From NCBI GenBank assembly GCA_902564235.1, contig CACFAG010000001.1, forward strand, positions 62,001-126,000: a stretch of 64,000 nucleotides of DNA, in the 5' to 3' direction. Below the pieces are notes generated by a model. The model did not search any database. It had not been told where the DNA came from and worked only from the letters and a program-made list of their open reading frames with translations. Each line of letters starts with the position of its first letter. Position 1 is the first letter of the stretch. The DNA comes from an uncultured Prochlorococcus sp. (lineage in GTDB: Bacteria > Cyanobacteriota > Cyanobacteriia > PCC-6307 > Cyanobiaceae). Positions 4,037 to 29,004 of this stretch are shown here, piece by piece. Both the position numbers and the translations under genes were made by a program.

Positions 4037-4176
4037 TGAAAAATAACGAACCAAAAAAAGTAGAAAAAGAAAAAATCGTTGCTGAAAAACTAAACGGTAG
4101 ATTTGCAATGATAGGCTTTATCGCTCTTGTCGGAGCATATTTAACAACGGGACAAATTATTCCTGGTTTTATCTAA
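4036..4176 (+). CDS. hli: high-light-inducible protein, 46 aa
   Basis: Second member of the tandem hli pair. ATG at 4036 shares one base with the preceding stop. A charged N-terminal stretch (MKNNEPKKVEKEKIV) leads into the chlorophyll-binding helix EKLNGRFAMIGF, with the Glu, Asn, Arg and Met of the motif in place, and ends with LTTGQIIPGFI. It will sit in the thylakoid membrane like its partner; Hli proteins often pair as dimers, so the two products of this mRNA could form a heterodimer (inference). A longer open frame reaching back to 3958 exists but is only overlap with the first hli gene. A strong terminator follows. Confidence 0.85.
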   Translation: MKNNEPKKVEKEKIVAEKLNGRFAMIGFIALVGAYLTTGQIIPGFI

Positions 4177-27434: not shown

Positions 27435-29004
27435 ATGAAAAATAATTTATCTGGAACACTTGCAATTGATCTTGGAAATACTAATACTGTAATAGCTTTT
27501 CAAGATCAAAAAGATATAAACTCTATTTTAATTGAAATACCGAATATAACTTCATCTCCAGGAGTTATTCCTACAGCAGTTTGGTTCGAGGAATCTTCAA
27601 AGATCCCTAAAATTGGTATTAGTGCTCTAAAGATGAGGAATAAATATAATTCTGATTTATTTTTTCATTCGAATTTTAAAAGATTAATTGGAAATCCTAT
27701 TGAAAAATTTAACCAAAAAAATATTTTAAATCCTATTGAATGTGGAGAAAAATTTTTTAAATTTTTGTTGGCAAGCATTCCACAAAAATATGTGATCAAA
27801 AGACTTGTTTTAACTGCTCCGATTGATACATACAAAGGTTACAGAGAATGGTTAGTCAATCTTTGCAAAGAAATAACAGTAGATGAAATAGCACTAGTTG
27901 ATGAGCCTACTGCCGCAAGTTTAGGAATTAATGTTCCATTTGGCTCAAAAATTATGACATTAGATATCGGAGGGAGCACAATCGATATGAATATAGTCAA
28001 AATAGAAGGAGGAGAAGGGAAATCTGGCCCAATAGCTGAGCTATTAAAATTTAAAGGAAATGATGTAAGCTCAATTTCAAAACAAAAAATAAGGTGTGCT
28101 GAAATAATCGGAAAAACAGGCTCAAAATTTGGTGGGAAAGATATTGATCAATGGATAGTTGATTATTTTATTCCAGATAATAAATTTGCTATTAACATTT
28201 CAAGGGGGGAAGAAATAAAATGTAAACTGAGCTCATCTGCAATCAAAAATGAAAATAAATATCCAACAAAATTATTTACTGAACAATCTCAAGAAAAAGT
28301 ATTTTATTTAAGTAAAGAGATATTTGAAAAAATACTCATTGAAAATTGTCTTCTTAATCATCTTAATTCTCTGCTCAAAGATTTATTAAATCAAGCAAGA
28401 GGAAAATTTTGCACAGTTGATGACTTAAATGCAATTATTTTGGTTGGAGGGGGGACTCAAATACCATTAATTAAAGAATGGATAACAAAAAAGATTCCAA
28501 AAGTTGAAATAAAGTCGCCCCCCCCCCATTGAAGCTATAGCTCTGGGAGCTTTAGCAATGACTCCAGGGGTACAAATTAAAGACATATTAACAAGAGGAT
28601 TATCTATAAGATTATTTAATAAAAGAGAACAAAAACATTTCTGGCATCCAATATTTTGCAAAGGTCAAACATGGCCAACTGAAAATTCATTTAAACTAAT
28701 TCTTCAAGCCAGTAAAAATAATCAGAAAGTGTTCGAAATAATAATAGGAGAAACAAACAAAGAAAGAGCATATGATGTGATTTTTGAAAATGGATTACCA
28801 AAGTTATCAGAAGTTCAAAATGAAGAAGAAATTAAAAAATGGGACAAAAAACCACTTCAAATAAAACTAAAGAATAAATCTAATATTGGAAAAGACAACT
28901 TGAAACTTTTTTTTAAAATCACCAAAAGTGCTGATTTATTAGTTGACTGTTTTGATATTAAAGATGAATTTTTAGGAGAATATAATTTAGGAAATATCTT
29001 CTAA
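27435..29004 (+). pseudogene. Hsp70/DnaK-family protein, frameshifted at a C10 tract
   Basis: An actin-fold Hsp70-type ATPase, about 522 aa after repair, shorter than DnaK (about 630). Phosphate-1 loop AIDLGNTNTVIAF at residues 9-21, LVDEPTAASLGI, and phosphate-2 LDIGGSTIDMNIV are clear, then ILVGGGTQIPLIK near the end of the ATPase domain. At 28518-28527 ten C break the frame: with ten the first part stops at 28532; with nine it would read SPPPIEAIALGALAMTPGV and go on to 29004 as a short substrate-binding-like part (LSIRLFNKREQKHFWHPIF). The downstream frame has no start of its own at the join. So it is a real frameshift, slippage site or sequence error. Divergent from rpoZ. Confidence 0.8.
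28518..28527. repeat. C10 homopolymer inside the Hsp70-like gene
   Basis: Ten consecutive C in an AT-rich genome. Nine would restore the reading frame of the gene around it. Confidence 0.9.

Follow-up and report, generated by a model that had tools for sequence, protein, structure and literature searches.

The interruption of an Hsp70-like gene of Prochlorococcus at a run of ten C is most likely not a real biological feature. Analysis of the window (the whole stretch of DNA under study, 64,000 nucleotides in length) and of its relatives across the genus suggests, with a probability of about 0.85, that the break is a technical error in the length of a C tract that is itself real and lies in an intact core gene. 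The gene itself most likely encodes an ordinary Hsp70-like ATPase and is an intact member of the Prochlorococcus core gene set.

The split gene and its C tract

The N-terminal part of the gene is located at positions 27435..28532 on the + strand and belongs, according to the ORF list, Pfam and its orthologues, to a gene for an actin-like ATPase of the Hsp70/MreB type. Its 365-aa ORF begins with the ATG at 27435 and runs to a stop at 28532, a TGA situated just past the C run. The C-terminal part (28531..29004, + strand) lies in another frame, which is open from 28531 up to the stop ending at 29004, and encodes the final portion of the ATPase domain (EAIALGALAM), after which comes a C-terminal region assigned to no Pfam family. 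The run of ten C (28518..28527, + strand) lies where relatives have three conserved proline codons, as seen from the sequence, from the alignment of relatives and from a census of C/G runs of at least nine. The sequence-only reading had placed the frame break exactly at this run, and the sequence and ORF coordinates confirm it; its arithmetic, by which nine C would join both parts, is right as well. It was also right in calling such a tract unusual in a gene of an AT-rich genome, as a model based on the composition of the window predicts 0.0064 C/G runs of at least ten per 64 kb and 0.12 per 1.2 Mb. The tract is the sole C run longer than six in the 64-kb window, the next longest being six, and the entire draft genome contains just one other C/G run of at least nine, which lies in the rpsK-rpoA spacer.

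An isolate-like relative served as reference, and of its 43 ORFs with a match in the window, the Hsp70-like gene alone is split over two frames. The check flagged two further ORFs, one of them a weak 50.8% match with stops and the other cut by the end of the window. A generally poor assembly was rejected because no other gene of the window is split in this comparison of 43 reference ORFs. As the rest of the window is without a second split gene, an error would have to be specific to this tract, which counts against a technical origin.

The N-terminal part matches the Pfam families HSP70 (8e-17) and MreB_Mbl (3e-14), the score for HSP70 (PF00012) being 61.1 bits against a gathering cut-off of 20.6. 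No Pfam match is present in the C-terminal part (28531-29001), and some of the DnaK alignments reach residue 442 of the orthologue. The break site directly precedes the segment matched to the end of the DnaK ATPase domain (pppiesialgal versus npdevvaiga), and a protein ending at the C run would, on this alignment, have an incomplete ATPase domain. Judging from their sequences, the neighbouring genes are putatively pyrR, gpmI, secG, groEL, groES and atpD.

Comparison with eight relatives gives dN of 0.06-0.08 and dS of 0.35-0.53 for the N-terminal part, and dN of 0.05-0.10 and dS of 0.35-0.74 for the C-terminal part, which is 82-90% identical to them (a ninth relative, L114, gave no usable frame). 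Neither half contains further stops, and the identities to the relatives are like those found among the intact relatives. The undecayed state of both halves implies that the lesion is either very young or not real.

The gene and the tract site in relatives

The N-terminal part was matched in 265 of the 266 genomes of the genus, although some of these matches are distant (E ~1e-4 to 1e-8), come mostly from incomplete drafts and presumably represent other DnaK genes. The gene was found in all isolate-like genomes of the genus, with a best E of <1e-143 in each. Among the matches listed, the orthologue frames are ~524-529 codons long, some longer, and free of stops; shorter orthologues besides that of the window occur in four genomes (G134, G225, G229 and G237), where they lie at or near contig ends, and three of these four also appear as named loci running into a contig end. 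The nearest genome among the matches found shows 88% protein identity.

Of 80 named loci, 74 were read through by script. Among the other six, two are intact (L093 and L116), three hit contig ends (L069, L070 and L103) and L114 is cut, with an apparent chimeric end. The protein at the tract site (SPPPIES-ALGAL) is conserved in the named relatives but the DNA is not, its proline codons being CCT, CCC, CCA or CCG. The homologous site was checked for a C run in other strains, as the sequence-only reading had proposed, and the longest C run there spans only 2-5 bases in 73 of the 74 intact named relatives and ten in the remaining one, AG-355-A18. Within the 246 listed genomes (G000-G245), at least nine C are present at the site in two, the genome of the window and G156, the latter corresponding to AG-355-A18.

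The ten C of AG-355-A18 (positions 4082-4091 of locus L066) occupy the same site and are in frame (TCC CCC CCC CCG), which means that ten C at this site need not break the frame. This tract is of independent synonymous origin. The conserved protein site, the varied third bases of the proline codons and the in-frame tract of AG-355-A18 together show that such a tract arises by synonymous change. When viral contigs were searched for the tract along with its left flank, three matches appeared, all in unrelated contexts.

Three single-cell contigs (L069, L070 and L103, out of the 80 named loci) stop 2-84 bases past the tract site. Contig ends of this kind exceed the expectation from even spacing, and it is possible that the site is a weak spot for amplification or assembly. 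In the contig of AG-916-B09 (CACJUL010000027.1; L114, 4230-4472), the Hsp70-like gene continues, close to the end of the contig, into a piece of gpmI in inverted orientation, a junction that looks like an amplification chimera.

Long C/G runs across the genus

Runs of at least nine C/G are present in 186 of the 266 genomes of the genus. We classified 150 runs, a part of the genus total that includes 60 chosen by hand from the run list, according to whether they are crossed by a long frame, interrupt one, or do neither. The isolate-like genomes contribute 43 runs (15 in frame, 0 broken, 12 intergenic or unclear and 16 in the rpsK-rpoA spacer) and the single-cell-like drafts 107 (24 in frame, 20 broken, 26 intergenic or unclear and 37 in the rpsK-rpoA spacer). 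Genic runs thus break the frame in 0 of 15 cases in isolate-like genomes versus 20 of 44 in single-cell-like drafts (Fisher p=0.001), under a grouping that is our own and was set after the first run table had been seen. When only one run per genome is retained, the corresponding figures are 0/7 versus 10/24 (p=0.066). The sense of the shift equals that of the window in 16 of the 20 breaks.

Ten of the broken genes were joined and compared with NCBIfam. In seven of them a single family spans the break (ribosomal protein L6, GlmS, ChlD, phosphoglycerate kinase, glutamate synthase, L-aspartate oxidase and a metal P-type ATPase), and three match no family at 1e-10. A living phototroph cannot do without L6, ChlD or phosphoglycerate kinase. 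The breaks in these essential genes are therefore technical. Two genomes, at loci L250 and L265, share a run of ten C with nearly identical flanks near base 1500; one of them reads through it in frame, and the frame of the other breaks there.

These results call for caution with similar data. Nearly half of the classified genic C/G runs of at least nine in the single-cell-like drafts of Prochlorococcus break the frame (20/44), and frameshifts at such runs should not be taken for pseudogenes or switches until reads have been consulted. At proline- and glycine-rich sites, such drafts may make gene loss look more frequent than it is.

The second long run in the genome of the window, at positions 195808-195816 of its contig C1 (genome G000; 1501-1509 of L004), is located in the rpsK-rpoA spacer, outside the window. 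This spacer holds 53 of the 150 classified runs, in isolate-like and single-cell-like genomes alike. Across many genomes, the C tract of the spacer measures 9-16 bases and ends 22-34 bases before the start of rpoA (38 of 40 rows measured). A looser pattern, consisting of six C and the end of the spacer, matched 151 of 266 genomes; no genome matched when it was reversed as a control. The C9-C16 tract in the leader of rpoA, the gene for RNA polymerase alpha, is conserved and variable in length. It is a better lead than the ten C of the Hsp70-like gene. Among the papers covered by our literature search, none contains Prochlorococcus, rpoA and rpsK together.

Origin of the frame break and comparison with known systems

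The draft assembly of the window's genome (1.2 Mb in 43 contigs, 68% complete) is probably a single-cell amplified genome, judging from its contig count and completeness. In this lineage, synonymous change has turned all three proline codons into CCC, which gave a long C tract that is most likely real. In a technical origin of the break, the length of this tract would then have been misjudged, as may happen at about nine C/G, during single-cell amplification, library PCR, Illumina reading or assembly, and the printed length would be off by a frame-breaking step. We infer that the break in the window belongs to the same class as those in the essential genes of similar drafts. The occurrence of this class of break in single-cell-like drafts, essential genes included, and its absence from the 15 genic runs of isolate-like genomes favour such an error. 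Of the three readings that the sequence-only reading had offered, sequencing error is therefore the best supported (20/44 versus 0/15 genic runs), widened here to amplification, sequencing or assembly.

Published descriptions bear on this in both directions. The main single-cell data set of Prochlorococcus was produced by MDA or WGA-X, Illumina sequencing and SPAdes, with a benchmark mean of 3.0 indels per 100 kb (PMC6122165). The single-cell workflow cited there used NextSeq 500, and the tendency of its P. marinus assemblies to the fewest indels counts against an error (PMC5519541). NextSeq 2000 and MGI instruments are described in another report as under-detecting homopolymers of eight already (PMC11140927), and discrepancies in 454 homopolymer length are named in an early single-cell study of Prochlorococcus (PMC2731171). 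In our literature search on Prochlorococcus homopolymers, single-cell genomes, amplification frameshifts, phase variation and Hsp70/DnaK, nothing on this gene was present among the matches listed.

A genuine and very recent slippage mutation in one cell, by which a real tract was lengthened in the wild and the gene inactivated there, is unlikely, though it deserves more weight than the other alternatives. Long C tracts are naturally prone to slippage, each single-cell genome represents an individual cell, and the dN of 0.05-0.10 against dS of 0.35-0.74 across the two halves is what a very young lesion would show. However, most breaks of this kind appear to be technical, given the essential genes hit in single-cell-like drafts and the unbroken genic runs of the isolate-like genomes, and the gene is kept in every isolate-like genome of the genus. 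The earlier suggestion of a young mutation thus agrees with the undecayed halves, but a technical error is better supported.

The proposal of a slippage-based switch, in which phase switching or programmed slippage would yield a long and a short protein and cells of the lineage would differ in making the full ATPase, found no support and is very improbable. The tract does lie within the coding frame, and ten C occur at the site in a second lineage, that of AG-355-A18; however, that lone relative is in frame, the other 73 intact named relatives carry short runs, so that it is the protein site and not the C run that is conserved, and the short form would be without the end of its ATPase domain by the alignment with DnaK. 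The switch was rejected on these two grounds, the unconserved run and the incomplete domain, and the literature matches listed contained nothing on phase variation by homopolymers in Prochlorococcus. Least credible of all is a fixed pseudogene of the lineage. The frame is broken as printed, but a second lesion is missing and the identity of both halves to the relatives is that of intact genes; this possibility was rejected because neither half has decayed.

With DnaK and Hsp70, the gene shares an ATPase domain that aligns over up to about residues 9-385 of the 522-residue orthologue. It differs from them in being distant, the intact orthologue of G031 reaching a best E of 2e-12 with DnaK structures, and its short C-terminal part contains no domain that Pfam recognises.

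Neisseria provides one case of phase-variable genes with poly-C or poly-G tracts. Such genes are also described for Campylobacter and Bordetella (PMC8808543), and the window resembles them in having a homopolymeric C tract inside a reading frame. In contrast to these genes, the tract of the window is not conserved among relatives and length variants of one lineage were not seen, and the gene is a core ATPase that appears to be without any sign of a surface role.

A further likeness is to the homopolymer-length errors of amplified short-read assemblies. In common with such errors, the break of the window coincides precisely with a C/G run of about nine and occurs in one kind of draft genome, in which such breaks affect essential genes too.
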